DNA from: Fomes fomentarius
Taxonomy: Eukaryota; Basidiomycota; Agaricomycetes; Polyporales; Polyporaceae
DNA length: 64,000 bases
Assembly (NCBI GenBank): GCA_022606135.1
Contig: JABYQN010000013.1
Coordinates: forward strand, 248,001-312,000
Reading direction: 5' to 3'
This document shows, piece by piece, positions 1 through 60,227 of the stretch. Under the pieces are notes generated by a model. The model was not told where the DNA came from, ran no database searches, and saw nothing but the letters and a program-made list of their open reading frames with translations. Positions within the stretch are counted from its first letter, which is position 1, and the number at the start of each line of letters is the position of its first letter. The position numbers and the translations under genes are program-made.

Positions 1-39
1 CCTTTTACTATTATCACCACTCCGCTGCTCAACCCTCAG

Positions 40-545
40 GCGGTGCTGCTCAGTTGTCTTACAACTCAACCACCGTTTCGCGTCACGCCACGCTGTCCAC
101 GTCGTATGCCACGTCCGCAGTCAACACCTGACAATCCGAAATTCCTTCGCAGAACACGGACTTGTCTCCGACGTCGCACACTTCCGATGGCTTTACGTTC
201 TCTGATCCCAAGTCACGGCTGCCCATCTACGGCCAGTCCGCACCGTCTGGCCCAGGGTCCTCCTCAGCGCCCTCCGCCTCGTGGTCGGACACACACCTCC
301 TATCGCCGTCAAGTGAGAGCACCCACAGTCTCGTGAACTCTTCACCCGATACCCCTTTGGTGCACGCGGAGGCTTTGCGTGCACCGTGGCATGCTCCTGC
401 AGGATGGAACCCGCAGTCGTTGCGACACGCATTTTCGTCGCGGAACGGGCGTGAATCTCCCGCTCCGAATCGCGCGCGAGACGTCGACTCGGGGTTGAGG
501 CTGTATAACGAACCCGCACTCCCGCCGCCGTATACCCTTGACTAA
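40..545 (+). CDS. array gene 1: C-terminal tail exon of a single-pass membrane protein (5' partial, possibly broken)
   Basis: Only the cytoplasmic-tail exon lies in the window; the rest is off the left edge. The acceptor CTCAG before base 40 gives the phase-1 continuation seen across the array. The tail carries the two motifs of the PPxY class: a Glu-Ala...Trp-His-x-Pro stretch, and RDVDSGLRLYNEPALPPPYT just before the stop at 543-545. PPPY is a WW-domain ligand. Oddity: the reading frame has a TGA at 129-131, about 30 codons into the exon, and no convincing intron removes it (the only GT-AG pair there is 33 bp). The gene is therefore either a pseudogene or spliced differently from its paralogues. 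Family membership is clear from the tail; the ectodomain cannot be seen. Confidence 0.65.
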
Positions 546-1078
546 CTATGTAACACGCTGAGCACGCCTACGCTGGACGCTCCTTATTTATTATGTCTGG
601 TGTGTCGCGTCCAGTAACTTAGGTTCACGCGCTGACGTCTGTGCCTGTCGTAGTTGATCATGGATAGTTGTTATACTTATCACACTCGTTTTGAAGGCGC
701 CTGTTGGGGCCGGATTATCATCATGATTCCTACTGTTGAGCTTGCTTTGATCGTCTGAGTTGTGTCTTTCGTTGCAGAGCTTCGCTTTTCGCATGGACTC
801 TCCTTTCTTGGCTTGGAATACATATGATGTGGCGTTCGAACACGCTGCTTCGTCCTAGAAACACTCGCGCTGAGATAGTGTCGCGGTTTGTGATTGATAC
901 ATTGTCAGAATAGTGATACGATACAAGAATGTGCTAGTCGCCGACGCGACGTATATTAAAAGGAGCCCCTCATCCTCGTTAGAACATCCCCCGTTGCGCT
1001 TAAACTGAGCTGGCCTACTCTCCTTGTATATCCACTCCTTCCACACTCACACTCGCTTGAACTCGACTCACTACCTCA
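546..1078. other. intergenic spacer between array genes 1 and 2
   Basis: No coding region is supported here; the minus-strand ORFs are short and without family features. A TATA-like TATATTAAA at 952-960 lies about 125 bases before the start codon of gene 2 and is the best core-promoter candidate. Confidence 0.5.
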
Positions 1079-2478
1079 ATGTCTCAAACTATTGTGGACG
1101 ACGACGACGCTGCTGTCATGTATCAACCCTCATGGCATCCCGATCCGGGAGCTTGGAACATGGTGGATCGTTCAAGACATGGGACGCCAGACCAAGGTGC
1201 GACAGCGTCCCTAACGTTCAAGGGTGAGTGCTGAGTCATTTACTGGAGTCCACGCTCCCCTTTGATTCACATTTGTCTCATCGTCAGGGACTGGAATCGA
1301 GGTTATTGGTACCGTGCAATCGTCGGCTTCAGACGGTTACCCCACTACCACGTACGCCATCGACGGTGACCTTATAGGGACATACACGCCTCCCTTCGTG
1401 AATAATGGCGACCAATTGTTCAATGTGTCGTTCTTCGCGAAGCGGGATCTAACATCAGGAGAGCACACTATAGTGATCACGAACACGAACGGGACGAGCC
1501 CGAACTTTTTCTGGTTAGACTACTTCCTCGTCGACTCTGCCAGTGTGCCAGGGATCCCAGATGTTCCACCACCTACTACTCTGCAACCGACCTCTACCTC
1601 TACTAGAACGACGTCCTCGACCTCGGACAGTTCGTCGCCGTTGCAACCAAAAACGTCTTCTACAACGACGCATACGTCTAGTGTGTCTTCTGATCCCAGT
1701 AGCCTCCCAGGCTCGACTGTTGAGACTGGCACGTCGGTTGTGACAACCTTCAATGGCACTTCCATCTCCCAACCAACAACAACTCCATCACAATCAACAA
1801 CAACTTCATCGCTCTCGCGGTTCTCGAACGGATCATCCTCATCCATGAGCGCAACCACCTCAATCTCCGTTCTACCCACCTCATCAGAGGTCGAAGCGCG
1901 CGTTCCACCTGGGGACCTCAATCTCGCTGCTATTTTAGGTGGCGTCTTTGGCGCTCTTGCTCTTTTGGTTCTGCTGCTATTGTCATGCATCTGGAGGAAG
2001 CGACGACGACACAAAGTCGTACAAGGTTCGTGCCAAGCTGCTTTGGGTACGAACACTTTGCTGATGGTTCGCAGTTGCGACCATGGAGCGCGAACGCAGC
2101 TTCATCTCGCGCGCAGCCGACAGCGACGGAGATAAGGCAGCAACAATCAGCATCACCTCACACCCCTTTGGACACATGCGTACACCGTCCGATGTCATCC
2201 ACATCATGCCCTCGGAGTCGTACCCGTCGACGGCATCTCATCTCCCTCCGCTGTCCACGCGTGCAAGTTCGCTGATGCGATCCGACATCGCGTCTGACAG
2301 AGCGACTACGAGCGATTCTTCCGATGGGTACCCATTCCCGTCCATCGCTGGACCATTCTGGAGCTCTCCACGCGCTATGGGCCGCAACTTTGCACTGGAG
2401 AAGCTACAGGAGCACCTGTATGGCTCGACTGTCACTTGGTTGAGCAGTGCGCGGAGCGGCCAGACCGGCGCCGCATGA
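1079..2478 (+). CDS. array gene 2: single-pass membrane protein with beta-sandwich-like ectodomain and Ser/Thr stalk
   Basis: Exons 1079-1223, 1288-2025 and 2075-2478 join with phase-1 junctions to 428 residues. Exon 1 gives an Asp-rich start (MSQTIVDDDD) and ends in TFKG. Exon 2 continues TGIEVIGTV, the ...YAIDG... segment, FNVSFFAKRDL..GEHTIVITN and NGTSPNFFWLDYFLVD, which are the core of the N-terminal domain. A long Ser/Thr stalk follows, then a membrane helix at about residues 261-285 and RKRRRHK. Positive-inside suggests N-out, C-in. There is no cleavable signal peptide, as in the paralogues. The tail differs from both main classes: it has no PPxY and ends in RSGQTGAA. Function is unknown; the fold (galactose-binding-like) is inferred from the strand pattern. 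Confidence 0.85.
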
Positions 2479-3527: not shown

Positions 3528-5156
3528 ATGCCCGAGTCTGTGAAGATTGAGGATAACGACTCCCGTGTGCAATACATTGGAGAGTGGTCGACAGATCCCT
3601 TCGCCGAGGCCTCCGGCGGCTCAAGACATGGAGCTGCGGTACTAGGGGTCATGGCCACGCTTAGTTTCACCGGTGCGTTTCTGCCTTCTCCGACCCAATC
3701 TGAGATGCTTATATACACATGGGATTAGGAACTAGTATACAAGTCTACGGAATAATCGACGACTCGCCACATGATGGCCAACCCACCACGCGGTACGACG
3801 TTGATGGAGAGACCGTAGAGACCTATACTACTCCGTGGACAGACACCAGAGCATTCGATGTCCGCTTCTTCGTGAAGAGTGATCTGTCTCCGGGCGATCA
3901 CACAATCCGCATCACGAACATGAACGGGACCAGCCCCACAATCTTTTGGCTGGACTATTTCGTCGTCGACGCATCATTCTCGCAGCCCCAGCCCCCATTG
4001 TCATCTTCCAGCGGTTCTCCTAAAACAACGTCTCTGTCCAGCGTAGCCTCTTCTACACAATTGACGTTGCACTCCTTTACCCCCTCTACCACCACCACCA
4101 CTTCTACGTCCCGCTCTAGTACGCCCACCGATAACAGCGCTTTGTATTCAAATGTTACAGTGTCTACCGTCAGCACCACACTATCACCTTTGCCTTCTCC
4201 TAGCGCCTCCACTTCCAACATAAAATCTCTAGATGCATCTCTGACCGGAATGTCGACCTCCCAATATTCGGGTGCACCGTCCAGTATAGGTAGTTTGTCA
4301 GCAGCGGAATCTGGATCCAGCCACGCAAACGTCATCGGGGGCGCCGTTGGCGGAACAGTAGCCGTTGTGCTCATAGCGCTCATCCTGTTCCTTGTTAGAC
4401 GACACCGGCAGAAGCGCAGCGAAGGTAACCTTTACTTGCCTTACGTCGTCACCTTTTTTGTTCGCTGATCATGACATGTCAGAGGAACTGCACCGGGTCT
4501 CTACGTATGAGACCTCATCCTTCACTGGAACCGCCTTCACGCGCACGGGCACCTACACGCACTGTTGCTGCGACCATGCTTGCGATCATGCTTGCGGCCA
4601 TGGCAGTGTACATCAAAGAAGTCGCCCTTCTCGCTCCAACGCATCGTACACCAGAGCACCTTTACTTGACAATACCTCTCGCTCGATGCGGAGTGGGTCA
4701 GTCACTACCACGACTGACCGCTCCCTTAGCCGTGGTCGGAGTCGTCGCCCTCGGCGCCGTCCTCAATCTGGGGCTACGGGTACATCCCAGTATAGCCAAG
4801 CTTTCTCTGTCGACTCAACGCCCGGCCTTCCAGTTTCTCATGCGCCCCCCTCTGAATCATACCCCGGTGCAGAGCCCTCAACTACGGACGGGGATGATAT
4901 GAGTACCAGGAGTACGACAATGCCCCCTCCATCGGCCGTGACGTCCTCAGGGCTGAGCACAATAATCCGCCGGGAGGTTGCTCAGGCCTCGTGGTATATA
5001 CCTCCTGCGCTCCAGACGAATGCGATGTCCCTCCTCGCGAACGTTTCCGCACGCAGAGCGCGGCAGCCCGTTGCTATTGCTCCTGTGGAGGAGGTCGATT
5101 CAGGGATGAGGTTGTATAGCGGGGACACACTCCCTCCGCGATACACTGCGGAGTAG
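3528..5156 (+). CDS. array gene 3: single-pass membrane protein with Cys/His-rich, PPxY-ended tail
   Basis: Exons 3528-3672, 3729-4424 and 4483-5156 (phase-1 junctions) encode 504 residues. Exon 1 (MPESVKIEDNDSRVQYIGEW...) has exactly the same length as in gene 2. Exon 2 resumes TSIQVYGII, IDG-like and GDHTIRITNMNGTSP, IFWLDYFVVD. After a Ser/Thr stalk comes the helix at about residues 250-272 (IGGAVGGTVAVVLIALILF) and a basic patch. The tail is the longest in the array. It opens with a Cys/His cluster (CCCDHACDHACGH) close to the membrane and ends DSGMRLYSGDTLPPRYTAE, a PPxY variant. It also has the REVAQASWYIPP motif of this tail class. The cluster could bind metal or be acylated; that is inference. 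Confidence 0.87.
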
Positions 5157-5671: not shown

Positions 5672-7182
5672 ATGCAAGTTGACGACTCCGACCCCTCCGT
5701 TCAGTACGTGGGGGATTGGATACAGGACCATCTCGAGGAGGCGGTAGATCACTCGAGACATGGTGCCAAGCTTAACGGCTCTACCGTATCGTATACATTC
5801 CGTGGTTAGTCTTTACCTTGTGGGATTCCGCCTCAGCTAACGACATTCTCTCATATCTGGTAACAGGCACAGGTATACAAGTCTTTGGGACGATTGGGCA
5901 AGATTCTGGCAGACCTAGCACTCAGTACGCAATAGACGGCCAGCACCCCAAATTCTACACAGTGCCACCCTCTGCAGCCACCCCTGAAAGCCAGACGCAG
6001 TTCAATATTTCATTCTACTCGCAGCATGGCCTCGGCCCCGAAGAGCATACTCTGACGATTACGAACCTCAATGGGACGAGCCCGAACATATTTTGGCTGG
6101 ATTACTTCATCGTCGATACGCCTGATACATCGGAGGGCATCGCGCCACCTCCGACTTCAAGCCTGTCCCCGTCGTCGAGTGAGACGAGCAACCCGCCTCC
6201 TTCAAGCTCCACGCAAGTGATCACTTCTACCTTTCTCCCATATACGATCTCCTTCACTCTGGCGACCGTGGATCACAGTAAGTCCATGGCGCCTATTACA
6301 ATTAGGCCCTCTTCACTCACTGCAATCTCTGCCAATGCTGCTGCAGTCACTACAATCTCTGACGTAAACGTGCCATCAGTCTCAAGGGTTTCAGCGAAGG
6401 GAGCAATATCGCAGGATGAGCACCATACGAACACCGCCGCCATCGTCGGGGGTATTATGGGCGTTCTACTGGTGATCGCGGTCGCGGTCACCTTCGCGCT
6501 GATTCGGAAACGCCGTCAGGGGACTCAGAAATGGGGTGAGCATTGTGCTTCATTATCTCCGAGTCTCTCGTTGTCAATAATTGAATACGTTGTACTGATA
6601 CTCAAACGGTACTTTTGATGAGAAGATTGTCAACCATCCCTCCCGCACAAAACTCAGAATATGATATCTGACGGGATTTCATCCTCAACTTCGATAACAC
6701 CTGCGGTCCATAGTACATGCATAGAATCATCCAACACGCTACAAAAGCCTCGTAGGTGAGCAAGCATTGCTTCGCGAGGTCACCTCATACTCAGTACCGA
6801 TATCCCTATGACTAGTTCGGTTACTGCGTGCCTACTTCCGGCTCATCTCGACGGTACGGATCGACAGGTGGCGCCGTCACAAGGGCGTAGCACCAGCCCG
6901 ACGCACCTCCAACTTGGCGAACCTGACCTCGATGACTCTGCCCAGACAAGTCAGCTGACTACCCCACATTCCGCAACGCCCTCTATGCTATTACGTTCTG
7001 AGGTGTCGCAGACGCCATGGTATACACCCCCTGGGATAGATATACGAGGGCAAGCTGCTTTGGACACCTTCCTAGGTCGTAATAGAGAAGATGTAGAGCA
7101 ATCTCCTATGCGGGACGTCGATTCAGGATTGAGGGTGCTGAACACGCCGGCACTACTACCTCCCCCCTATACTGCTGATTGA
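5672..7182 (+). CDS. array gene 4: single-pass membrane protein, PPPY tail, four exons
   Basis: Exons 5672-5804, 5867-6535, 6623-6755 and 6795-7182 give 440 residues. Exon 1 starts MQVDDSDPSVQYVGDW. Exon 2 carries TGIQVFGTIGQ, YAIDG, FNISFYSQHGL, EHTLTITNLNGTSPNIFWLDYFIVD, a Ser/Thr stalk and the helix at about residues 234-258 followed by RKRRQ. A small extra exon (6623-6755, one frame open throughout) and a 39-bp third intron are predicted. They are supported by gene 5, where the same exon is open and the intron is 45 bp. The tail has SEVSQTPWYTPPG and ends RDVDSGLRVLNTPALLPPPYTAD, with PPPY as probable WW-domain ligand. Head of a recent tandem duplication with genes 5 and 6. Confidence 0.85.
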
Positions 7183-8746: not shown

Positions 8747-8753
8747 TATATAG
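8747..8753 (+). promoter_or_regulatory. TATA box of array gene 5
   Basis: TATATAG, 48 bases before the gene 5 start codon. The same box in the same context (gctgctTATATAGtcgctg) stands before gene 6, so it has been kept after duplication. Confidence 0.55.
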
Positions 8754-8800
8754 TCGCTGAATCTTCTAAGTCAAGAGCTCATCGGGAAGAAGTACCCGCC

Positions 8801-10197
8801 ATGCAAGTCGACGACGCCGACCCCTCCATTCAGTACACAGGGGATTGGATACAGGATATTCTCAAGAATGCGGCGGGTCATTCGAGACATGGTGCCCCAT
8901 CTGTGGGCCTCACCGTATCGTATAGATTCCACGGTTGGTTTGTACCCTGTGGGATCCCGCCTCAGCTAAAGAATATTTCTCATATCTGGTAACAGGCGGA
9001 GGTATTGAAGTCTTTGGGACGATTGGGCAAGATTCTGGCAGACCTAGCACTCAGTACACAATAGACGGCCAGCACCCCACATTCTACACAGTGCCACACT
9101 TTGCAGCCACCCCTGAAAGCCAGAGGCAGTTCAATGTTTCATTCTACTCGCAGCATGGCCTCGGCCCCGGAGAGCATACTCTGACGATCACAAACGTCAA
9201 TGGAACGAGCCCGAACATATTTTGGCTGGATTACTTCATCGTCGATACGCCCGATACATCGGAGGGCATCCCGCCACCTTCCACATCTCTATTTACTGTG
9301 AAGTCCCGAGAGAATACTCATATTGGGCCCTCTTCACTCTCCACCACCGACGTTACAGTCACAACAATCTCTGACGCAAATCCATTGGTCTCGATCGTTT
9401 CAGGGAAGGGAACACTCTCGCAGAGTGACCACCACGACACCAACACCGCTGCCATCGTTGGGGGTATCACTGGCGTTTTACTGGTGATCGCGGTCGTGGT
9501 CACCTTCGTGTTGATTCGGAAACGCTGCCAGGGGACTCAGAAGTGGGGTGAGCATTGTGCTTTATTAGCTCCTCTCTCACTGTCAATAGTTGAATACGTT
9601 GTACTGATACTCAAACGGTACTTTTGATAAGAAGACTGTCAACCATCCCTACAACACAATACTCAGAATATGAATTCTGACGGGATCTCACCCTCAATTT
9701 CGATAACACCTATGGTCCATAGCACATGCATAGAATCATCATACACGCCACAAAAGCCTCGTAGGTGAGCAAGCGTTGCTATTGCTTTGCGAGGTCACCT
9801 CATACTCAGTACCGATATCTCTGTGACCAGTTCGGTTACTGCGTGCCTACTTCCGGACCATCTCGACGGTACGGATCTACAGGTGACGCCGCCACAAGGG
9901 CGTAGCACCAGTCCGACGCACCTCCAACTAGGCGAACCTGACCTCTATGACTCTGCCCGGACCAGTCAGCGCACTACCCCACAGTCCACAACGCCCTCTA
10001 TGCTGTTACATTCTGAGGTATCGCAGACGCCATGGTATGCACCCCCTGGGAACGATATACGAGGGCAAGCTGCTTTGGACGCCTTCCTAGGTCGTGATAG
10101 AGAAAATGCAAAGCATTGTCCTATGCGAGACGTCGATTCAGGATTGAGGATGCTTAACACGCCGGCACTACTACCTCCCCCCTATACTGCTGATTGA
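8801..10197 (+). CDS. array gene 5: single-pass membrane protein, PPPY tail, four exons
   Basis: Exons 8801-8933, 8996-9547, 9632-9764 and 9810-10197 encode 401 residues. It is a close paralogue of gene 4 with a shorter stalk: the Ser/Thr segment after IPPPSTS is cut by about 40 residues. Domain order is MQVDDADPSIQYTGDW, GIEVFGTIGQ, the IDG strand, FNVSFYSQHGL, HTLTITNVNGTSP, FWLDYFIVD, stalk, helix at about residues 197-220, RKRCQ. Exon 3 and the 45-bp third intron line up with gene 4. The tail is EVSQTPWYAPPG ... RDVDSGLRMLNTPALLPPPYTAD. Same likely role and topology as gene 4; no break seen. Confidence 0.87.
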
Positions 10198-11739: not shown

Positions 11740-12908
11740 ATGCAAGTCGACGACACCGATCCCTCAATTCAGTACGTGGGGGATTGGATGCAAGATAACC
11801 TCGAGGAGGCGATGGGTCACTCGAGACATGGTGCCCCATCTGTGGGCCTCACCGTATCGTATAAATTCCACGGTTAGTCTGTACCCTGTGGGATCCCGCC
11901 TCAGCTAACGAATATTTCTCATATCTGGTAACAGGCACAGGTATTGAAGTCTTTGGGACGATTGGGCAAGATTCTGGCAGACCTAGCACTCAGTACGCAA
12001 TAGACGGCCAGCACCCCAAATTCTACACAGTGCCACCCTCTGCAGCCACCCCGGATACCCAGAGGCAGTTCAATGTTTCATTCTACTCGCAGCATGGCCT
12101 CGGCCACGGAGAGCATACTCTGACAATTACGAACCTCAATGGAACAAGCCCGAACATATTTTGGCTGGATTACTTCATCGTCGATACGCCCAATTCATCA
12201 GAGGGCCCTGAGCCGCACCATTCTACAACTTCTTCTGGCCTGTCCGAGTCGTCGAGTGAGACGAGCGACTCGCTTCCGTCAAGCTCCACGGTCATTGCAT
12301 CCAAGTCCTCCTCAGCCTCTGCCTCGCAAGTGACCACCTCTACCTCTCTCCCATCCACGATCTCTACCCCTCCTCTGGCGACCGTGGTTCACACTGATTC
12401 CATGGAGCCTATTACAACTGGGCCCTCTTCATACACTGAAGTGTCTGCCAATGCTACAGTCACTACAAACTCTGATGTAAACGGGCCATTGGTTCCAAAC
12501 GTTTCAGCGAAGGGAGCACTCTCACAGGATGAGCACCATACGAACACCTCCGCCATCGTCGGGGGTATCATGGGCGTTCTACTTGTTATCGCGGTCGTAA
12601 TCATCTTCGCTCTCATTCGGAAACGCCGCCAGGGGAAGGAGCGAGGTGAGCGTCCTTTCTCCTCTGCTCCTCACTCACTGATACTTATGACTAGAGCGCG
12701 CGCTTGACTACTAGTCATCTTCCCTGACGAGGCCGATACCTGGTACGGAAATGCCGTGACGCCTTGGGAGGAGGAGCCGAAACTGCGTACTTCAGAGACA
12801 TCATCTGAGCTTCCTTATGCCACGACCGCTTACGTTTCTCACTCCCTGGTGCCGGACCTCCCTCCCACACCTCATGTACCTCCTAATTACAGCAGTCCTT
12901 TCAGATGA
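11740..12908 (+). CDS. array gene 6: single-pass membrane protein with a different, PPNY-containing tail
   Basis: Exons 11740-11872, 11935-12645 and 12715-12908 encode 345 residues. The first two exons are close to genes 4 and 5: MQVDDTDPSIQYVGDW, GIEVFGTIGQDSG, FNVSFYSQHGL, HTLTITNLNGTSP, FWLDYFIVD. Then come the stalk, helix at about residues 251-275 and RKRRQGK. The tail exon is not homologous to theirs. It reads VIFPDEADTWYGNAVTPW... and ends PPTPHVPPNYSSPFR. It still supplies a PPxY motif (PPNY), eight residues from the end, so the WW-ligand feature has survived a tail swap. The phase-1 symmetry of the intron makes such a swap frame-neutral. Confidence 0.82.
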
Positions 12909-43640: not shown

Positions 43641-43799
43641 CCGGGTGCAAGTCGACGCCTGAAGCCCGGCGCGACTCTGCACCCAGAACCCGCCGTTCCT
43701 GCCGGACGTCCGACCTCAAGGGCTGGCCCCGCGTTGCCCGGCAACTCGATCCCGACCCTGCTGACACCCATCTGGTACACAGTGACCTACCCGCTGAAC

Positions 43800-44400: not shown

Positions 44401-44416
44401 GAAGCCGGTCCTCACA

Positions 44417-44437
44417 AACTACTACTACTACTACTAC
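44417..44437. repeat. ACT trinucleotide microsatellite
   Basis: Seven ACT units. The right arm has only a short, degenerate AGT counterpart near 51960-51980, so it expanded in one arm. Confidence 0.7.
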
Positions 44438-44649
44438 CTAATACTATACTAAGGTACTACGGCGTGTTGAAGTGTTGTACTGTTGCAATGTCCATTCGGT
44501 TGGCACGTGAGTGTCGAGTATTTCTTGTATCGGTTCCACAGAAGTCGATTGTCAAACCCCGAGTAGGGCCGAGTGCACAGGTCGGATGTCTTGAGCGATG
44601 GCGTGGCCTTCGTCAAATAGACCCGGCCCTTCGAAGAGGGTCGGCCGCT

Positions 44650-45744: not shown

Positions 45745-46115
45745 CCCGAGAGACAGGAGGCTAAGCGCTCGACACTCAATGGTGCTTAGGCCAAACTTCA
45801 AGCCGTGTTGCAGGCCACTGTGCGGCAGTCACAAACGGAGCTGAATTGCTGACATACACTGCTCTGGTATCCGAGCGACACCGCCGTCGCGGGTAGCTCG
45901 GTTTGGTGGTGTTTCCGAACGAGGCAGTGTACACCGACAGTTGAGTTTGTGATCAGACCGAGCATTCAGGCTGGAAAAGAATGAAAGCCGAGGTGGGCGT
46001 GAGGCGCTGCGTTCTAGCCCAAGTCTATTTGAGATTACGTGAGAATCGCAGGATCGTGTTGGCTCTAGAACACAGGAAGACGATAAACGTCGACTCAGCC
46101 TAGGCTCCGAGATCG

Positions 46116-46390
46116 CCACAGTGGCATTCGCTCGTTTGTCGTTATGGCTGGCAGAACTGCAGTCTCATTATTGTCCGGGAATGATCACCTTGTCATCCCA
46201 ACCACCGCTGGATGCTGCGAAATCATCTGAGATAGTGTCAACGACAATGTAGTTGTATGCAAAGCAAACGTATGTATGTTGTACTCCTATGTGTACCCTT
46301 CCCTGTGGCAATGATCGACGGTCAGCGAGGCAGAATCAGATTTTGTCAAATGACATACACACTCACATAGATTCATCATGCCGCAATTCC
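46116..46390. other. unique spacer downstream of ALG12
   Basis: Short unique DNA between the inner end of the left arm and the ALG12 stop codon; presumably holds the ALG12 3' UTR. Nothing else is seen. Confidence 0.5.
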
Positions 46391-48439
46391 TCACGCTCCA
46401 CGCCTCAGGATCATCAACTTCTCCGAACGCACCATCTCCAGCACACCTCCTAACCCTTTCACACTCTCGAACAACCCATCCTTCAACGCACTCCTAACAT
46501 CCCGATTGAACCGCCAACCGTCGAACCCGTCCACGACCGCTACCGTCGTCCAGCCTTTCGCTGCAAGGGCAGACGGTGAGTAAGAAGAGGCCTCGACGAT
46601 GAGGTGGGTGATCTCTTGGGAGCGCGTGAGGTCGTCCAAGGTGAGGTTCTCTGTCTTGTCGTACACCCAGCTCGTGTGATGTGTGTCGTTCACGCTGGGC
46701 AGGAATGGTGGTGCGTTGTTGTGCAGGAAGAGCGACGCGCCGGTTTGCGCGGCGAGGTTGCATATGTGTACGTGCACTGAAGGACGGAGTCAGATCAGAC
46801 TCGGGGCCCATTTAGGTTAAGAGATATCCGAGACGCACCGTTCTCTTCCGAAGCGTATATTTGATTGAATGCGCGCAAAGCGGCACCCCCGGGATAGTTC
46901 GCGAACGAGGAGCGCGCGAGAAGGAACGTCGCTGCGCAATTCGCCGCTAGGAACGCCGCGACGGCGAGGAAACACAAACGTCCGAAGAGGCTGCCTTTCC
47001 GTCGGCTCGTCCTGCGCAACAAGGTTAGCGTTGACAGTACATATGGCCGTAGATAGCAGATATGGGGAACTTACAACCATGCAGCACCGCGCGCGGCAGC
47101 GATGTTGAACGCAGGCACGACATAGATGACAAACCGCCATTCTTTGTGTGCAAGCCCGCTAATGAGCAGGATGAAGGCTAGGTAGGGAATCAGGAGTGCG
47201 CGGATCCGACAGTCTGAGAGGAGTCCGAAGGCGGATAGCGGAAGGGACGAGAGGAGTAGTTTTGGCAGGTGGGAGGTGAGGTATGCGTGGAAAGGCGAGA
47301 CCTGGGAGGTGCTCTTAGTGATGATGCAACGACTACCAGAGAAAAATTGTAGTACACACGCCCCATTCTGAGCTCTTGCCTTGCAGGACATTAAAGTAGA
47401 TGCCGTAAAGCTCGGGCCACAGTGGCCATTGTTGCCATAAGTACGAGTCAACCAGCGCAGTCAAGGCTATGACACGGTCATCGTAAGTGGGGTGAGGACA
47501 AGAGAAAAGATGCTCAGCCAACCTGCGGATAGCACACCCGAGATGAGACCGACCTTGATGATGTCGTAGAAGGAGGAGTATCGCAGCGCAGCTTGTAATG
47601 CGACAGGGCCAAGAAGAAGAAGCAATTCGGAGCGAAAGACAACCGTAGTGAATGTCAGAAGGCCGATCGCCCAGTGCACGCTGGATTTAGGTGGACGAGT
47701 TGAGTTTGGCGCGCGGTCGACAAGGTGGTAGAGAGCGATATTCGCTAAAGATTGGCAGGGATGGGATATGCAAGCACATTATTGAGGTGGATAGACGTAC
47801 CCGGAAGTAGAGCGAACATGTTGGGGAGGGTGCGACTCATCCAGAACGGCAGATGAAACTGCGTAATGGTGAGCAGTACGAAGAGTACGCCCGTCGGCCT
47901 GCCGAACCTCCTTGACACTGCGCGACGGAGAAAACATAGTCCCATAGTATTCCAGCTAGCCAGAGCCATACGAACTGAACATGACGCGAGCGCATATGCA
48001 CGGGTTGGGGAGGGAAGAGGTGGAAGTACTCACGAAGGACCTGAACATCAAACTTGTCCGAGAATATCCCAAACCACGACCCTATACGCAGACTGGCCCG
48101 AGTCGTCAACGCAAGCAGAACACTCCCAACAAACGATCTCGGAACCGCGCCAGGAAAAGTGAAATGGTCATACTAGCGAGCGCGAGCGAAACATCCAGTC
48201 CATCCAGTGAGGTGGCACGACGTCGAGCAGACAAAGGATACAAGCATCAGTCAGCGCGTGCTTGTAAGACGTACAAGGGAGGCATTGCGCACTTTAGGCA
48301 GGTTGGCAGCACCGACTCCGTACATGAGGACATCGTGGGTCGCGTGTAGGTTGAAGCTCTCCTCGACCTTTGTGAACGGTGCGAAAGACACAAAGCTGAG
48401 CCCAGTGATGATGAGCGCGAGGTCCAGAACAGCGCTCAT
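46391..48439 (-). CDS. ALG12: dolichyl-P-Man:Man7GlcNAc2-PP-dolichol alpha-1,6-mannosyltransferase
   Basis: Eight exons (48439-48293, 48172-48034, 47974-47801, 47744-47523, 47466-47360, 47301-47075, 47011-46839, 46776-46391) sum to 524 residues with every junction in frame, a normal length for the family. The enzyme adds the eighth mannose to the lipid-linked N-glycan precursor in the ER lumen, using dolichol-P-mannose. Signatures: [18 protein letters not shown] at residues 21-38 (GT22 lumenal loop), [65 protein letters not shown]. Many hydrophobic helices fit a multispanning ER protein. It appears intact and single-copy in the window, lying alone between the arms of the inverted repeat. An upstream in-frame start at 48580 is possible but would add a poor leader. 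Confidence 0.93.
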
Positions 48440-49507
48440 TGCTTCAAGGGGTGGGTGTGTTAGCGTCGACCGTAGTAGCCACTCCCGCGCGATGAAGACG
48501 AGGACACTGTTACGAGGTTGTAGTGGTCGGAGTCGGAGGGTCAGAGTCGGCGCTAAGTACGAGTCTTCCTTGCCTCCCATCTCTCTCTACGCGCCCAAGC
48601 GTATTTTCGTTCTTCGCCCTTGCTCATCCCGTGCAGCTGGTCATTAGGCTGGATCAGTCTGGAAGAGAGGAGACGCGAGGGCGCGCGATGGTATGTCGAT
48701 GACCTATGCATCGGCCGCGATATCGAAACCAGAGTCCACCTCAAGGCAATCCTTTCGTCTTGAGGTCAGTACCACTATTACTCAGACGTCCTGAAGCAAC
48801 TTGGACTCAACAGCAACAGATGGCTTGTGAGCGCGGTATTCACGCGTCGTGTCATGCCTTCGAGCTCATGTGCGTCCTTTCAATCTTAGATCATGCATAT
48901 GTTGTGCAAATATTGACATGTCACTGCGCTTTGTAGCTTTGTACGGTCTCTCTCGTCCTAGCGCTGCTCAGTATCCGTCCACATAAATCTTTCCTCGTCA
49001 AATGTGCACACGTCGGACGGGTCACTCATTCCACGGTTCTTTCAGCCAGAACGCGGTATCTGACCTCATTCTCGCACTACTCCCATCTTCCGAACGAATG
49101 GACGACCTCCTTCAGGTGCTGCTCCAATCTTGGCACCACATTGATCTCGCCGGAAGCCAGTCACCATCATTTTGGCATCATTTGGTTTGACTTGATACGG
49201 CGTGCAGGGCCTTGGTACGAGACTATTCACATCGTCAACCACCCCCTGACTGAACTACCCGTTTTCCTGTTGCGACCTGATATCCGTCCAACGAGGCGTT
49301 TCATCGGGCATCTCCGGTAGTTCGCAAGTGATGCGCCTCAGTTTTAACACTGTGACGTTCAAGTTCACTGTTAAATGTAGTCTGCCTGAGAGACAGAAAT
49401 GCTGTCGAACTGTAGGTCATGGACTTCGCGAGAAGATTACCCGCACTGGAATAGACAGCAAGGAATTCCATAGTGACAAACAAAGAGAAACAAGCGGGTG
49501 CCAGCGT
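48440..49507. other. unique spacer upstream of ALG12
   Basis: No supported gene. It contains the ALG12 promoter side and unique sequence up to the inner end of the right arm. ORFs are short and unsupported. Confidence 0.5.
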
Positions 49508-49860
49508 GTGGCGGCCTCTCTGAGTCTAGGTTGAGTTGACCTTCAAACGTTCATCGCCATGCTGTGTTCTAGAGCCTACACGAGACAGCAACGCTACACC
49601 TCACGCCCACCTCCGGCATCCAATTCTGTACCAGCCTGGATACTCGGTCCGATCACAAACTCAACTGTCGGTGTACACTGCCTCGTTCGGAAACACCACC
49701 AAACTGAGCTACCCGCGACGGCGGTGTCGCTCGGATACCAGAGCAGTATATGTCAGCGATTTAGCTCCGTCTGTAACTGCCGCATAGCGGCCTGCAACAC
49801 GGCTTCAAGTTTGGCCTAAGCACCGGTCGGTGTTGAGCGCTTAGTCTCCTGTCTCTGGGG

Positions 49861-49867
49861 TATATAA
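49861..49867 (+). promoter_or_regulatory. TATA box of the right module array
   Basis: TATATAA followed by a TC-rich leader (CCTCTCTCCCAGAACCCACTTCC-type context) that is kept in both arms. There is no ATG before the first donor (GTATGTTCACTC), so the first exon is untranslated. Confidence 0.55.
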
Positions 49868-51720
49868 GGTCGCCTGGTTTGACTGACCTCTCTCCCAGAA
49901 CCCACTTCCTTCTCGCCCCTTCTACCCCCCTCCTGCCTCCCTCTATCTGCTTAGGACCTCTCTTGACAACAACGATCGCACTGTGGTCAGGTATGTTCAC
50001 TCATAATACAGCTTCGTGGTCGTGTACTCATGTTGCTCTCCCCACTAATAGATCAGATCTTAACGTGGGCCTCGATAAGACACCCATGCGGGCGTGGGAT
50101 GTCGGGATGGACCTAGTGCGTCGCACGCGGCTGGACCGCGGTGTTGACCGTCCTCGCCGCAGCAGCAAGATTTCGACCAGTCAAGTACGGAAGTCATAGA
50201 TGCTCAACGAACGGGAAACAACGAAAGATAAACTGAATGCAAGAACAAGGTATGGTCCCTCATCTTCATGTCGCTGCGCTTCATATACTTACTGATGGTC
50301 GCCTTGGTTAGGATACTCATGCGGGCATGGGTTACCGACATGGATCTTGGGAGTCGCACGCGGCTGGTCCGCGGCGTTTACCGTCCTCTCGGCACCAAGG
50401 TGTCAAGTATGACTCTCATGGATGCCCAACGAACGGGAAACAACGAAAGCAACCCGGAATACAAGGCCAAGGTAAGGTTCCTCAGCTTCATGTCGCCGCG
50501 GTTCATATAATCACGTCGCGTTGGTCAGGCCAACCGTGCGGGTATGAGTGAGTCGCCCGCGGCCGGTCCGTGGTGTCGACCAATCTAACAACAAGATGGC
50601 TACTACTGCGATTTCCGTCACATCCCGCCCAGAACTGCTATGGAATGCGAGGTTGGAGATGAGGACGACGCCTGAGTTATGGTTCCTGCCCCGTTCATTG
50701 CCTGAGGAAGTCGCCATACAGCGACGTCTGTCATCCACAACCGCTACAACTGAGTAAGTCCATGTTCAGGTCGCTCCCTAATGTGTCACGTTTACTCATG
50801 TTCCTCTCGCCACCAATAGATCAGATCTCGACATGGGCCTCGATAAGACACCCATGGCGGCGTGGGATGTCGGGATGGACCTAGTGCGTCGCACGCGGCT
50901 GGACCGCGGTGTTGACCGTCCTCGCGGCAGCAAGATTTCGACCAGTGAAGTACAGAAGTCATAGATGCTCAACGAACGGGAAACAACGAAAGATAAACTG
51001 AATGCAAGAACAAGGTATGGTCCCTCATCTTCATGTCGCTGCGCTTCATATACTTACTGATGTCGCTTTGGTTAGGATACCCATGCGGGCATGGGTTACC
51101 GATATGGACCTTGCGAGCCGCACGCGGCTGGTCCGCGGTGTTGACCGTCCTTGCGGTAGCACGAACTCGGCCACCGAAGCATGAATCTCATCGCTGCTCA
51201 ACACACGCGCAAGAAAGAAAAACAACCGAATCAAGGCGAAGGTATGGTCACTCCGTTTCATATCGTCCTCCATATACTGATGTCGGCTTGGTTAGGATGC
51301 TCATGCAGGCATGGGTTACCGACATGGATTGGACGCGTCGCAATGCGCATGCGGCTGGTCCGCGATGTTGACCGTCCTCGCCGCAGCAAGAACTCGACGA
51401 CCCAAGTATGACTCGCGTCAATGTTCAACGAACGGGAATCGACGCACGGAAAACGCGATCAAGGCCAAGGTATGATATATGATCACTCAACTTTATGTAG
51501 CCCTCCATATACTGATGTCACCGTGTTTAGGATACCCATGCGGGCACTGTGGGTTACCGACATGGACATGGTGAGTCACACGCGGCTGGTCCGTGGTGTT
51601 CACCGTCCTCGCGGCAGCAAGACTTCTTCGACTGCTCAAGTATGGATGCTCAACGGATGGAAAACATCGACAGCAAGACGTGATACTAATACAAGGCCAA
51701 GGTATGGATCCGCCATAGCG
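49868..51720 (+). repeat. tandem array of splice-flanked exon-like modules, right arm (about seven units)
   Basis: Units are centred near 50110, 50350, 50550 (degenerate), 50900, 51120, 51345 and 51580. Each has a TAG acceptor, a core with ATGCGGGC(A/G)TGGG and a C-rich imperfect hairpin (CACGCGG ... CCGCGGTG with a 5-base loop), and a CAAG/GTATGG donor, spaced 210-240 bp. ATG-led frames read MRAWDVGMDLVRRTRLDRGV or MRAWVTDMDLGSRTRLVRGV and close soon after. Reading frames do not run on between units. The last unit is followed by RPTLFEGLGLFDEGPAIAQD, open into relic G. It could be a non-coding or micropeptide transcript, or the dead 5' half of one gene. Confidence 0.6.
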
Positions 51721-52620
51721 CGGATGTCCGCCACGACCGTTCTGAGCCATGATCAGCGGCCGACTCTCTTCGAAGGGCTGGGTCTATTTGACGAAGGCCC
51801 CGCCATCGCTCAAGACATCCGACTTGTGCACTCGACCCTACTATGCGTTTGACCATCGACTTCTGTGGAACCGATGCAAGAAATACTCGACACTCACGTG
51901 CCAACCGAATGGACCATTGCAACAGTACAATGCTTCGACAACGTCGTAGTACTTAGTATAGTAGTATAGTAGTAGTAGTTTGTGAGGACCGGCTTCGAGA
52001 CGGCCATGCAACAGACCCTCGATTCAAGACGCCGGCCCCGAGGTACGGTCGACCGGAGATGTGGTCGTTCCTGGCGCAGGCCTCTTCGTGGCCCTCGGGA
52101 CTAGTACCTGCACCTTTTGCAGGGAAGCCAACGTGCGCCGAAATATTTGTGTCCGAGTTCTGCTTCTGGTTGATTTACCGTTTGTAATCGAGCACGTCAA
52201 AGAAACCTTGCTGTTCTCGACGCTCATAGGCCTCCGCATCGCTTGTGCGCTCACATGATGGGTTCACTCACCGACCAACGGCCTCACACTTCATTCATCT
52301 TTCGCCTCCCTCAGCAACATCACTAGCTAGTCGGGAGCCCCCACCAAGATTATTGACCGGTCTTTCAATGCTTTCCCCCATATCTCTCCCAAGGACGTTC
52401 AATGTCTCGACCGGCGCCCAGACGACCCCGACTACATGAACGTCTTCCTGACGAAACCCGCGCATTCAGAGGCCGAGGTCGCGCAGCAATTTGACGTTGT
52501 CGCTGCTGAGCTCTAGCAGTTCAGCTCGGTCGAGAACAGCCCTCTGCTCGCTGCCGCAATTCAAGTTCTTCCACGAACATGCATCTTGCAAACGCCATAC
52601 CTGTTCAGTGGGTAGGTCAC
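51721..52620 (+). pseudogene. relic G, right copy (unidentified protein fragment)
   Basis: Plus-strand counterpart of 43.80-44.40 kb: RPTLFEGLGLFDEGPAIAQD near 51770-51830, GAGLFVALGTSTCTFCREAN near 52070, and DDPDYMNVFLTKPAHSEAEV AQQFDVVAAEL followed by an in-frame TAG at 52514-52516 and QFSSVENSPLLAAAIQVLP. The TAG at the same codon is present in the other arm. Not recognised as a known family. Confidence 0.45.
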
Positions 52621-52629
52621 TGTGTACTA

Positions 52630-53515
52630 GATGGGTGTCAGCAGGGTCGGGATCGAGCTGCCGGGCAACGCGGGGCCAGTCGGTACGGCCCTTGAGGATG
52701 GACGTCCGGCAGGAACGGCGGGTTCTGGGTGCAGAGTCGCGCCGGGCTTCAGGCGTCGCCATGCACCCGGACCTCGAAGAACGCTCAGTCCCCGGTCGCG
52801 ACTGACCTGTAGATGGATGAACGAAGGCGAGTCTATGGCTCTGAGAGTCGGCGGCCAGCACGGATTTTCAACGTGTGTTTCATGAGCTGGGGTGTGTGCA
52901 TCACCATACAGCCGGCTGCGGGTGGTCGTAGGCTGTTCTACACCCATGTGTAGGGGAGCGCGTCGAACTTCAGCTCTAGGGATGCTGAACATGGTCTGCC
53001 ACATGGTCAGACATGTAGAACGACAGCGGGAAGTTGCCTCGGACATATCTCCAGCACTCTTCGAGGATGTCGTGTGCATGTTCATGCGATGGCGAGGGTG
53101 ACATTGGCGAGAGTCTGAGGCCGTGTAGGCGACTAGAAGTGAAGGGAGGGGATGGGAGTGGGGACGCAGAGTCTGCGAGGGGTCGGTCGTGCTGTGTTGC
53201 ATTGGCAAGAGTCTTTCGAGAACGAGAGGACACGCAAACTGATATTGATGCGAGTGAGCAGCGTTGGCGGAGTAGATGTCTGATGCGTGGGCGTGCTTGA
53301 CGCGGTCTTGGCCGAGTCGCGCATACCCAATGAGCGTGCTTGCAGGGGTCGCATCAGGGGCGCAATCGGCGTATCAGTGGACTTGGGCTGTGGATGGCAA
53401 GGAGCGTCATCGAGTGACGGACGCAGGACGCGAGCTGAGGCTGGCAATCGAGCAGACGACCGCAGGGGAGCTGTCGTCGATGCGCGCGCAGACTGCGAAG
53501 AGCGTGGAGTTCTCC
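52630..53515. other. decayed segment X, copy 3 (right arm)
   Basis: Inverted copy of the left-arm segment. The match stops abruptly at about 53512, inside GAAGAGCGTGGAGTT, where 1 kb of DNA absent from the left arm begins. Confidence 0.5.
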
Positions 53516-54015
53516 GTCATTACGTCATGCGACCCGACATCTTATTCCAACAACCAATGCACTTTCTGCACTGCACTTGAGCTCCAAACCGCCGGGTGCC
53601 GCTCTAGTCAGAGACGTGCGCCATCACGCCGAGGACCCGTCTGTGTGCAGTTTTAGCGAGGACACGTCGGAACACGAACGCAACTGAGCTTACCGGGATC
53701 TCGAGAATGCGCCTTGACATTCGCATCCTTATCGCCGCACCATCCAAACCTGCATGGTATGGGAAGCATGATACGACAGAGGGCTATGTAGTACGAGTTT
53801 TGTCGCAAGGACTGGGCGGACGCTCTCGTGCGTGTGCGTAGCTTCTCCAGGAACGACTGGGAATCTCGGACGGTATACTGGTGCGTCATTCTATTTTGCA
53901 CCTCACCGGGAGCATCGAGGAGGCATCTTTAAATGATCGACAAGTCAAGATCTTAAAGTCCATGGTACCATATCCCGACTTATAGCATATTAGCACATGC
54001 TTGGGACGCGCGTCC
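53516..54015. other. right-arm-only DNA, first half
   Basis: No counterpart in the left arm and no supported gene. It precedes the La-related remnant and may contain its lost N-terminal part in unrecognisable form. Confidence 0.4.
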
Positions 54016-54921
54016 CTTCTATATACCACTTCTCCATCGTCATCCAGAGCATCACATTTCCACCACATCATCTCGGCCGACAGGGATACATACCCGTAAG
54101 TGCAAAGCGTTTGCATTCGTCACCTAGAAGACACGAAGGGTATAGTGTCGGAATGGTCCGTGGCACCCACGCCGGACGTCACCGATCCCGGCGAATCCTC
54201 CACTACATTAGTCGAGGCTGTCAAGTGCGGGTTCCGTGAGCTGGGACGTGGAGTATGTCGCGTACGGCCGACGTCTATCAGCCCGAGCTCGTTCAATTGC
54301 TCACGGCTTCGACTACGACACAGATGCGGCGGAAGAGCGATGTACAGTCATTGAGGCACCTCGCAGCTGCAGGCGCGGCCTCCGCTGGACCCGCGCGCGC
54401 CCTTCCCACCCGGATGTCTCGTCTTCGCCCGGAACGTGCATCACTAGACGCACAAGACGACGCTGGAGGGCCTCTTCTCGGCGCACACCGTCTCCAGCCG
54501 CTGGCATGACCTCGGTGCGCCTCCCACTGCTTATCCGCACGCACGCGAGAGAGTACGATTCTGGCTCACCGTCCATTGCCACACCTCCGCTACTCGACCC
54601 CGCACCACGCACACTCGCTCGTCTCCGTCTCCGCATTCGAGGCTACACCAGTCGTCCGGCTTCAAGGCCTCGACGGCGCCCTGCCGCTTCTACCACGCCT
54701 TTCATCTGTGAAAGCCATGAGGGAGGAGATCGTCGATGGGGGATTGGAAAAAGGTACCGGAGAAAGTGCGGCGCGAGGCAGTGCGGAAGGCGATCATACA
54801 GATGGCTGCGGGAGATAGCGTCGGGGCGGGCGAGAGCGAGGACCGGGCTCGGGATGAGACGGAAGGAGGTGGAGAGGAAGGAAAAGGGTGGACACCGAAG
54901 AAGCGGCAGAGGAAGTTGTGA
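54016..54921 (+). pseudogene. La-related RNA-binding protein, copy 3 (decayed)
   Basis: Plus-strand pieces: SIYHFSIVIQSITFPPHHLG near 54025-54085, then KCKAFAFVT directly followed by TAG, where the RRM core should read on into LEDT. VEAVKCGFRELGRGVCRVRP follows near 54210-54275. Further on, pieces of a second RRM region fall in shifting frames. The C-terminus is WKKVPEKVRREAVRKAIIQM, an acidic linker and KKRQRKL with its stop at 54919-54921. KCKxFAxVTL and the WxKVPEKVRREA end are typical of La-related proteins (RRM plus C-terminal RNA-binding module). Several stops and frameshifts make it non-functional. It precedes MLKL/HeLo-like copy 3 on the same strand. Confidence 0.6.
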
Positions 54922-55561
54922 GTGGTGTTGATCCGCGCCTGATGTGGAGGGACGCGCGCCGAGTTCAGTATGTTTGCTCCGCTGCCAGTATGTCTACGTT
55001 AGGCTCATTCTTCTCTTTCAGTGTCTATATAAGATGTGCCCAGATGCATACGCAGGAACACGGTTCATCGGTCTTGCGGAATGGTCCTATGACAGGGACG
55101 CGTGCGTTGAATCCGAGAACTACGAAGTATACCGCCGTGTGGCTTCACGAAATACGGTTTCGTGTAGGAACGTACGGTAAGTCGGTAGTTGACAGTGCGG
55201 GAGCTTCTCACAAGGTCTCACCCATCTGGCATCGACCCAATAGTCGGCTGGTTCGTTCTACAGCGTATGCCCCAATGCATCACAGACCTCGGCTCATGCA
55301 ACTACTCACCGTACTTTGGCCTAGGAATTTCTCCAAAATACTTCTGCAACGTGTTCGGATCTTCTCTGGTAGGATCATGGCTATCCACAGTGTATGCCTC
55401 ATGGCTTATACACTGTAGGGCTGTGATACTTGTATTAAGTTTAGACGCGCAGGGGCCGGTGCATGCGACTCGCCCTCCTGTTGCCCATCTTCCACCCAGA
55501 TCCCACTGCTCACCGTACTTTTACCTGTCTGCATCACGGCTTCCACTCGTCGCCATACACT

Positions 55562-56463
55562 ATGATTTTTTCTAAGATACTTCCGCAACGCATTCGGATC
55601 GTCTCTGCTAGGACCATGGCTGCTCTGCACCCCCGCTTCGCCCGTGCAACCCACTCCGTCAAGGATATCGTGCGCAAGAGCCCCGTCGGGCTGGACAATG
55701 CCGCCTTCGCCATGCAAATGGCCGGACAGCTGGGTTCTTCGGTCCCATTCCTGCCGGGCGTCATGGAGGCTACGGCCAAGATCCTCGAGCGGATCGAGGT
55801 GAGTGAGGCTCCTCAGCAGTGGTCAGAATGACGACATCGGTATGAAACGGTGGGTTTTGGCAGGCCGTGAAGCGCAACCACAAGGATTGCAAGGAGCTGG
55901 GGGAGCATGCCCAGGTCATCATTGACATGCTGTAGAGCACTATCGAGAAGATGGCCGAGGAAGATCTGGACGACTTCCTCCGTTTGCATCTGGCTGAACC
56001 TGAACTCGAAACGTGAGTCGACTGGGTGGGACGCTGTGCCGGAAGTGGCTTGAGGGCTGTTGCAGGGCACTCCAAGGAATCATCACCGCGATGCATGATC
56101 TGAGGAAGCCATCACGGTTGCAGCGCATCCTTCGTAAGCAGCACAACGACGCGGCGCTCTCAGAGCACAAGGAGACACTCAAGAATGCGTTCACTGCTTT
56201 CCAAGTACGTTATTATTCAGCCGCTACTCATGATGGTCGTCGCTGAATATTGCACACAGTTCAAGGAGCTCATGGTCACGCATTGCTATCAGGCAAGGGC
56301 AGTCGCGCTCTCCGACGAGGGCAAGCGCGTAGACGGCTCAGGCAAGCGCATTCTGGGTGGGGATGAGGATGCTGACGGAACCCTACTTATATTGTATTTG
56401 GATGGCAAGTGCTTGCGCAGCCCTTTTTGTTTTCTGAGTACGTCATTACGTCATAGCAGCTAG
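55562..56463 (+). pseudogene. MLKL/HeLo-like helical-bundle gene, copy 3 (one nonsense codon)
   Basis: Exons 55562-55798, 55864-56012, 56066-56204 and 56260-56463 keep the frame, splice sites and exon lengths of copies 1 and 2. Exon 2 has an in-frame 6-base insertion near its end, and TAG at 55933-55935 where the other copies have TGG (Trp in the MMWST context). Translation would stop after about 100 residues, within the bundle. All else is open to the stop at 56461-56463. A second, short copy of the exon-1 start (FSKILLQRVRIFSGR) lies upstream at about 55325-55370. Confidence 0.65.
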
Positions 56464-58728: not shown

Positions 58729-58735
58729 TATATAG
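58729..58735 (+). promoter_or_regulatory. TATA box of array gene 12
   Basis: TATATAG, 102 bases before the start codon, in the same CTCGATATATAGCACx context as gene 9. Confidence 0.55.
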
Positions 58736-58836
58736 CACGATGGTGGCATTGATATCCACGCTAGCCATCTGGCACTGCGCACAGTGCACTCCCCCCCGCT
58801 GGCTGCTCACAGCAGTGCCCACACACTTGCTAGAAA

Positions 58837-60227
58837 ATGACTTCTACAATCAATAACAATGATCCTTTAGTTCACTACTCACCCAATGGATGGGAGCCAG
58901 AACCGAGGTTTGGGGGGATACACGCCCCCATTGTCAACAACCCGACAGCTGCAAATCTTACACTCGAGTTTGACGGTGTGTCTGACCACCTCTCACTTCT
59001 TCCGACTACTAAAATCTGTCACACCCAGGTACTGGGGTGGTCGTGGGCTTTCTGAACAATGGAAGTCCCTTCAACGTCCGAGATCTTCTCCGCTGTGCTG
59101 TGGACACCCCAGACATACCATTACCTACTCCTCTCAACAATGCTCAGACTTCAACGCAGGTGACCCTCTGTGCGATTACTTCGCTACCCTCCACTCACCA
59201 CACGCTCCGAGTTCATCCCGGTGAAGGCGCAAATAACAACCCCTTGATCTCTGGATTCGTAGTCTTCTCGGACAGTGCAAGCACACGGGCCGTTACACCC
59301 ATTGCTGTAGCTCCGCCTACTCAGCAATCGAGTGCATCACCGAAGGATACCTCGTCCCCACGACCAAGTCATACATCACAATCCACCCTGCGGCCGTCTT
59401 CAATCACCTCGGGTTCATCACCGAAGGACACTCTGTCACCACAACCAAGTCATACATCACCATCCGCCCCACGGCCGTCGACAATGACCTCGAGATCGAC
59501 GAGCGCTCCTCCCACTAATTCCCCTCTTCCTGCGCCCTCCATTGCGTTTCCGTCAAGTCCCCCTACTCTTCCCTCATCCACCGCTTCTCCATGGCAGGAT
59601 CCATCGCCCACGTCACAGCCACAACCAAGCCCCACCCACGCTCCATCGGCATCACCTCACACTGCCCTTATTAGCACGAGTATAGTTGGTGGGGTGGTAC
59701 TATTAGTAGTGGTGATCTCGCTGTTGCTTTCCAGGCTCTGGAAGCGGCGGAGACACGAAGGTAGCGCACAATCCTATGTAGGAACTGTACCAACATCTGA
59801 CTCCGCTGGCGCAGATGCGGAAGCCGATCCTGCCCAGACCTCTGAGAACACATTTATTGCGCCTTCTCCCACCATACGGAGACTCTCTGGCACATGTGCA
59901 CCATTAGCCAAACCCTCTTCTCAACAAGCACACCTTACTATGGCGTCCATCACCAGTTCTGTGTCCGTCACTGACGGACACCGGACACCACCACCCGCCG
60001 GCGGGAGTAGCGATAGTCTTGACACTCCATCATCGCACACGCGCCTTGTGCATGGGGAGGTGTTGAGTACTGCATGGTATGCCCCCAAGGAACTTCAATC
60101 TCACGCACAGTCGCTGCTACGCGGTTTCTCAGCACAGCGGCGAGGCGCGTCCGCGATGCGAGACGTGGATTCGGGACTGCGGGTGCACGACGAGGCTACT
60201 TTGCCCCCGCCATATACCCCAGACTAG
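58837..60227 (+). CDS. array gene 12: single-pass membrane protein, gene 9-type head with PPPY tail
   Basis: Exons 58837-58975, 59029-59760 and 59815-60227 encode 427 residues. The head is of the gene 9 subtype: MTSTINNNDPLVHYSPNGW, LTLEFDG, TGVVVGFLNNGSPFN, LLRCAVDTPD, VTLCAITSL, HHTLRVHPGEGANNNPLISG. The stalk has imperfect repeats (SPKDT.SP.PSHTS). The helix is at about residues 263-286 (TSIVGGVVLLVVVISLLLS) with RLWKRRRH. The tail is of the other class: GEVLSTAWYAPKE and RDVDSGLRVHDEATLPPPYTPD. It therefore combines a gene 9 head with a gene 4 tail. Intron 2 is 54 bases, stop-free and in frame, with a weak GTAGCG donor; retention would add 18 residues. Confidence 0.85.

Follow-up and report, generated by a model that had tools for sequence, protein, structure and literature searches.

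We describe an array of genes for single-pass membrane proteins in the basidiomycete Fomes fomentarius, twelve of which (g1-g12) lie in the stretch of 64,000 nucleotides analyzed here (C13:248001-312000, hereafter the window) from a genome of 40.9 Mb in 24 contigs. The proteins combine a head with a predicted carbohydrate-binding fold, a Ser/Thr-rich stalk, one transmembrane helix, and a tail that ends in a PPxY (PY) motif in most members; genes have traded heads and tails with one another, and an imperfect palindrome of ~88 kb lies within the array. In the reading that we favor, and to which we give an even chance, the products are wall-facing glycan receptors with Rsp5-recruiting PY tails that were diversified by modular recombination.

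Spliced gene models, obtained by dynamic programming with corrections set by hand, bear out the twelve plus-strand genes of the initial annotation, with g1-g11 clustered (g2-g11 span window 1079-30766) and g12 apart (58837-60227). Its description of a dense, expanded array also stands, but twelve members are too few: whole-genome searches, together with a tblastn search covering 230 kb of the contig, placed 24 head loci (18 plus-strand, 6 minus-strand) over C13:229.9-353.8 kb, which makes the array twice the length visible in the window (members on C13 beyond the window are given names in "x"). Other, mostly weaker matches in the whole-genome search are scattered over C2, C3, C6, C8, and further contigs; for C2 and C3, one 4-kb stretch was read from each.

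Relatives of the same architecture occur in several genera, which we take to belong to Polyporales and Agaricales, under the names hypothetical, uncharacterized, or transmembrane protein, and in one case NAD(P)-binding protein. No paper on this family was among the matches listed in a literature search that covered titles and abstract beginnings in part. Each component is of a known kind, and none of the searches made turned up a named family that combines a carbohydrate-binding module (CBM)-type head, a PY module, exchanged tails, and a palindrome. The PPxY tail ends together with a ligase gene, the second tail type with head-tail exchange, and the palindrome are new here, and an anonymous family becomes testable through its head fold, a conserved tail end with a likely partner, and exchange at the level of exons.

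Architecture and orientation of the proteins

In the 11 models g2-g12, the head comprises ~125-135 residues, and is interrupted by one intron, in most cases at FxG|TG. The initial annotation had proposed single-pass proteins with a split beta-sandwich head and a structural search with predicted heads, and the outcome agrees with its proposal: the predicted structure is a beta-sandwich jelly roll of ~130 residues, 115 of ~133 residues of which aligned to 2waa with a root-mean-square deviation of 2.0, and the fold search places it in the CE2-N/CBM35-CBM36-CBM6 fold group. The likeness to the N-terminal domain of carbohydrate esterase family 2 and to CBM35, CBM36, and CBM6 concerns fold and length; in contrast to that esterase family, no SGNH esterase domain follows the head, and Pfam scans of g2, g4, and g9 found no hydrolase after it, the stalk and transmembrane helix coming next instead.

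The Pfam family CE2_N (PF17996) was rejected as a label for the window proteins because their scores lie under its curated cut-off (13.1-13.6 bits for g4 and g2 versus 27.9, with no match for g9). Pfam matches were weak in 4 of 16 heads (E up to 0.1). A six-frame, exon-by-exon search of the genome with CE2_N found a single match (24.6 bits, on C1), which stayed under the cut-off; among relatives, the cut-off is passed (P0022, Mycena). The hits of a fold search in a viral library, a phage CE2-N protein along with tail proteins, are read solely as further instances of the same fold. The low-confidence model of a class B head (the type found in g9-g12) weakly matched ANXUR1 (5y96, E 0.015). Plant malectin-like receptors (CrRLK1L) have the same plan of a sugar-binding-type head, a transmembrane helix, and a cytoplasmic output, which is a kinase in plants, whereas the array proteins gave no kinase match.

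The stalks vary between 34 and 123 amino acids with 30-55% Ser/Thr, and each protein has one transmembrane helix (Kyte-Doolittle 2.5-3.2) followed by a basic patch, all as first described; the Gly-rich helix of that description applies to most of the 11 models, which have GG motifs close to the helix start, and not to all. The content of Lys plus Arg is higher in the 17 residues after the helix than in the 15 before it in all 24 array models, among them two that are damaged. By hydropathy, a signal-peptide-like start is absent from 21 of the 24, as had been noted, while the start further upstream is more hydrophobic in g5, g6, and x341. Hidden signal peptides were sought by extending the 24 models upstream in frame, and none had a Met with a strong hydrophobic stretch. 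The highest upstream hydropathies were 1.86 in the longer public start of g5/g6 and 1.61 in x341, against 2.73 and 2.05 in two relatives on C2; this test leaves room for an upstream spliced exon, and the model of x232 is without its true first exon.

These two relatives (C2:1559001-1563000, minus strand), which belong to a second small cluster, have signal-peptide-like starts. A whole open frame of 464 residues there, without a Pfam match, reads from a signal-like start through the same head, a Ser/Thr stalk, and a GG-rich transmembrane helix to a PPRY end, its parts being assigned by eye. Because these relatives carry such starts, an orientation with the head outside and the tail inside is supported for the family. 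The earlier designation as surface proteins gains from this; in the members without a signal peptide, the head would face outside by analogy.

Tail modules and their exchange between heads

PPxY lies within the last 20 residues in 15 of 22 array models (the 24 without the damaged x244 and x341), one of the 15 being g6 with its doubtful tail model, whereas shuffled tails gave a mean of 0.12 and a maximum of 2. Within the last 35 residues, it is present in 12 of 18 relatives from other genera (shuffle mean 0.27); these were counted from 30 protein ids after leaving out the F. fomentarius entries P0001-P0005 as well as P0008, P0012, P0013, P0015, P0016, P0019, and P0030, for which the genus was not given or which were a fragment, matched weakly, came from bacteria, or bore the name of another enzyme. 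A block DSGxR...PPxYT is common to Fomes, Trametes, and Trametopsis members and is kept in the copy on C3. Two relatives with equal search scores lie in opposite orientation near the end of that contig (3501534 bases), at C3:3454005-3454265 (+) and 3498908-3499168 (-), and the former reads a PY tail.

A second module, unrelated to PY, ends g9, g10, g11, and x325 and reads WSPExF...WYAV in most of them. The tail modules that share no relationship thus number at least two, and the odd tails of g2, g6, g7, and g8 come in addition; by eye, the g2 tail resembles that of P0006 from Earliella. The claim that tail motifs stay while heads differ therefore holds in part.

The tails, of ~56-229 residues, are predicted from the charge bias and the C2 relatives to lie with their PPxY on the cytoplasmic side. 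According to an excerpt of one source, PY motifs are bound by WW domains of Rsp5/NEDD4 (PMC9105457), and the genome has a gene of the Rsp5 type at C1:1072410-1074277 with three WW domains and HECT pieces. The PY tails contain 23 Lys versus 155 Arg in 2499 residues, a Lys:Arg ratio lower than that in the heads (40:90, p = 0.0002) or the WYAV tails (12:34, p = 0.04), and in Lys per residue, they differ from the WYAV tails (p = 0.01). Few lysines in the tail could suit an adaptor that hands ubiquitin on to a partner and is not itself consumed, but lysine is scarce throughout the protein. The transmembrane Rsp5 adaptors (Rcr1/2, Ssh4, Ear1, and Bsd2) offer a possible analogy as membrane proteins with a PY motif that can bring Rsp5 to the membrane, Rcr1 being located at the plasma membrane according to the same excerpt (PMC9105457); the array proteins differ from them by the CBM-type head, the mucin-like stalk, and membership in a clustered family.

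Where genes have exchanged heads and tails, the breakpoints lie either within the stalk or near the border of exon 2 and intron 2. Between x322 and x325, identity is 91.5% over a span that begins in the 5' flank, includes the transmembrane helix, and reaches into intron 2; beyond it, the two are unrelated, one with a PY tail and the other with a WYAV tail. Similarly, g4 and g6 share 83% identity up to a point near the exon 2 end and diverge past it, and g9 and g12 are 75% identical up to the stalk and then differ. The gene x315 is like g12 from the stalk onward only and like g11 before the stalk only; the synonymous divergence (dS) between g12 and x315 is 2.3 in the head and 0.30 in the tail, in agreement with exchange. 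Within the class B group, tail types alternate on the head tree, for which we count at least three changes, on a tree with a long-branch warning. The chimeric pairs, this alternation, and dS together indicate that the tail type is not inherited with the head type.

Minus-strand self-comparison revealed an imperfect palindrome of ~88 kb on C13 (253.5-342 kb) centered at 295.3-297.8 kb, in which 253.5 pairs with 342.0 kb at 76% and 267.1-269.1 with 324.4-326.3 kb at 75% over 2 kb; self-matches off this line are also present, as expected of tandem paralogues. The inner arms (window 40607-56359; ~40.6-46.0 and 49.6-56.4 kb, C13 288.5-294.0 and 297.6-304.4) match in register at 79-99%. Among neighbors at 79-89%, a stretch of 602 nt is 99% identical, which suggests recent conversion. 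Read outward, the right arm repeats the order of the left arm, namely, g11-like, g9-like (with g12, itself g9-like, as its nearest head), a g8-like tail, g6-like, and g3-like twice. The palindrome may have had a part in the exchanges, and this arrangement suggests one route by which new receptor combinations are made.

If these proteins are glycan receptors, they would be type I-oriented single-pass plasma-membrane proteins that face the cell wall, in which the CE2-N/CBM35-type head would bind a glycan or glycoprotein, either of the wall or from outside it, the Ser/Thr-rich stalk, presumably O-mannosylated, would cross the wall, and the helix and basic patch would anchor the protein with the tail inside. 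The DSGxR...PPxY end of most members may bind the WW domains of Rsp5/Nedd4, and with ligand-driven clustering or uptake, the receptor or a partner might then be ubiquitylated, followed by endocytosis or signaling. According to a published abstract, PY-motif binding relieves autoinhibition of WW-HECT ligases (PMC5892558). We infer that ligand-driven clustering of PY tails could be a simple trigger. A minority of members would carry WYAV as another output module, and new combinations of heads and outputs would come from ectopic recombination between tandem copies and between palindrome arms, with joints within the stalk or near the exon 2/intron 2 border.

Selection and alternative explanations

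The initial annotation took the strong differences between heads as rapid diversification over conserved helices and tails and proposed a comparison of substitution rates. In seven paralogue pairs with both parts alignable, nonsynonymous to synonymous (N:S) changes were 250:174 in heads versus 145:112 in tails (p = 0.52), and the head omega was below 1 in six of these pairs; over 20 pairs examined by the pairwise method NG86, it was below 1 in 18 of the 19 with a value. Positive selection on heads, considered as a candidate, thus found no support from pairwise NG86 or the pooled comparison. In g1/x242, the head had 16N:4S and the tail 3N:8S (p = 0.007, uncorrected for seven pairs), with a head omega of 1.32 that is not different from 1 (p = 0.79). 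The contrast noted at first reflects old head classes plus reassortment; diversification is real in the form of head-tail exchange within an imperfect palindrome. Fast head evolution over conserved tails found no support in these pairs.

Several observations weigh against glycan receptors with Rsp5-recruiting tails. The window heads are far under the CE2_N cut-off, so that glycan binding is predicted from the fold alone, the class B model is weak (block pLDDT, the predicted local distance difference test, 48-78), and the head tree carries the long-branch warning mentioned above. Signal peptides are lacking in most of the array and in 17 checked non-Fomes relatives, which makes export by the transmembrane helix alone an assumption. 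Of the 22 array models, 7 do not end in PPxY, and the same is true for 6 of the 18 relatives; Lys per residue does not clearly differ between PY tails and heads (p = 0.10), and low lysine may be a matter of general composition. In addition, g10, g11, x244, and x341 look damaged.

These damaged copies could point to a mostly decaying tandem array under neutral birth and death with few active genes: x244 (C13:244734-246269), an extra copy of g2 at 88% identity, is without the portion of exon 2 that encodes the head, x341 is degraded, and g10 and g11 carry frame changes in the stalk and the tail exon, respectively, unless weak short introns remove them. The predominance of head omega values below 1, PPxY ends far over chance, and an open frame across head, helix, and tail in most models make this extremely improbable. 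An allorecognition or non-self locus, in which heads recognize surfaces of other individuals or competing microbes under balancing selection and tails are different outputs, would suit the tandem array with head-tail exchange, the growth in copy number with damaged copies, and palindrome arms that could serve as templates for conversion. On the head tree, the seven class B heads also form one clade (support 100/100), and none was named from another genus in the one search containing such heads, the genus of P0008, which has one, not being given. We nevertheless consider it unlikely: amino acid changes are not in excess in heads, no HET, NACHT, or HeLo-type domain of NLR/HET allorecognition proteins was found in Pfam scans of g2, g4, and g9, and a clear partner of g2 exists in Earliella (64% identity in the head), which makes one member, at the least, stable between genera.

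Cell-wall integrity sensors like Wsc and Mid2, with a head holding wall polysaccharide, a stalk acting as a spring, a tail signaling to Rho, and PPxY for turnover only, have the same order of parts, and a Tricholoma relative weakly matched Mid2 over the stalk and transmembrane helix (E 0.0012, below the cut-off). In an excerpt of one source, Wsc1 consists of a head, a Ser/Thr spring, a transmembrane helix, and a short tail with a motif for endocytosis (PMC7915640). The array proteins share with Wsc/Mid2/Mtl sensors the stalk, single helix, tail, and predicted extracellular head, but no Cys-rich WSC domain was found in Pfam scans of g2, g4, and g9 or of the heads of g2, g3, g5, g7, and g9-g12, most members are without a signal peptide, and PPxY takes the place of NPFxD. 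Two dozen clustered copies with exchanged tails are also unlike the five sensors of yeast counted in that excerpt (PMC7915640), and we regard this explanation as quite unlikely. Very unlikely in our view are adhesins or structural wall-linkers between hyphae or between hypha and wood, which would have no signaling role and use PPxY as a turnover signal only. A CBM-type head, a mucin-like stalk, and many variants fit such proteins, and by eye, the relative P0020 ends in a GPI-like hydrophobic stretch, whereas the length of the tails, with a conserved end and two modules exchanged between heads, suggests that the tail does something specific.

A wider proposal, which we put forward tentatively and consider unlikely to hold in full, is a combinatorial receptor locus of mushroom-forming fungi, in which a palindrome of ~90 kb would drive recombination, pairing lectin-like heads anew with two or more interchangeable cytoplasmic output modules, one of them a lysine-poor Rsp5-recruiting PY module, and would supply strain-specific sets of glycan receptors for self/non-self discrimination or for reading the surfaces of partners and competitors. 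If heads do read non-self, this would be a surface recognition system for basidiomycetes; fungal immunity reviews, in the excerpts available, treat NLR, HET, HeLo, and gasdermin systems and not such receptors (PMC10197012, PMC12881547).

Individual genes and neighboring features

All window genes are on the plus strand. At the left edge, g1 (window 1-545) is present by its 3' part of two exons with a PY tail ending DVDSGLR..LPPPYTLD; the gene occupies C13:246981-248545, and its head, stalk, and transmembrane helix lie left of the window. Class A heads with a stalk and helix follow in g2 (1079-2478; head at residues 1-130, non-PY tail), g3 (3528-5156; PY tail LPPRYTAE), g4 (5672-7182; PY tail LPPPYTAD), g5 (8801-10197; short stalk, PY tail), g6 (11740-12908; head like g4/g5, with a different short tail past exon 2 of uncertain model), and g7 (14107-15326; divergent head, odd tail). 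The most divergent head belongs to g8 (16718-17936), which has a short stalk and a tail that resembles the WYAV type in its WSPEMF motif; its intron 1 (16845-16897) appears, by the gene model alone, to be GC-AG (GCAAGT...GTAG). Class B heads are joined to WYAV tails in g9 (19650-21106), g10 (22026-23473; frame change near 22567-22633), and g11 (29313-30766; frame change in a C run near 30414), and in the chimera g12, a g9-like head stands on a PY tail.

In three protein searches, public counterparts were returned for four of the twelve. P0003 is an exact match to g12; P0002 is near-identical to g5, from which it differs by a longer N-terminus and two junctions; P0004 is identical to g2 through the end of exon 2; and P0001, with a longer N-terminus, agrees with g6 to the end of exon 2, the model stopping shortly past the transmembrane helix. 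The array seems under-annotated because g3, g4, g7, g9, and g11, which were rows of the query alignment in a protein search, returned no counterpart. Rfam and tRNA scans of the window gave no matches, nor did an anti-phage library among four proteins scanned.

In the middle of the palindrome (window ~46.4-48.6 kb, minus strand) lies an Alg9-like family mannosyltransferase gene (Glyco_transf_22, 79 bits), which we take to be ALG12, and a cytochrome P450 gene is located at ~61175-62880 (-; PF00067, 45.6 bits). Single-exon Pfam scans of both were uninformative, and joined exon pieces gave these matches. Diverged direct repeats with a spacing of ~200-240 nt occur in both inner arms (44760-45529 and 50021-51619). 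Reading frames at 33989-38868 (-), without a Pfam match, look to us by eye like a basidiomycete DNA transposon. A family of small open reading frames beginning MIFSK has four copies, all on C13 at E up to 0.001, with strands mirrored around the palindrome center (window 25392-25750 (-), 41056-41412 (-), and 55562-55919 (+), and C13:330287-330641 (+)); the two window copies scanned had no Pfam family, and by eye, we presume a resemblance to the N-terminal part of fungal NLR-type proteins.

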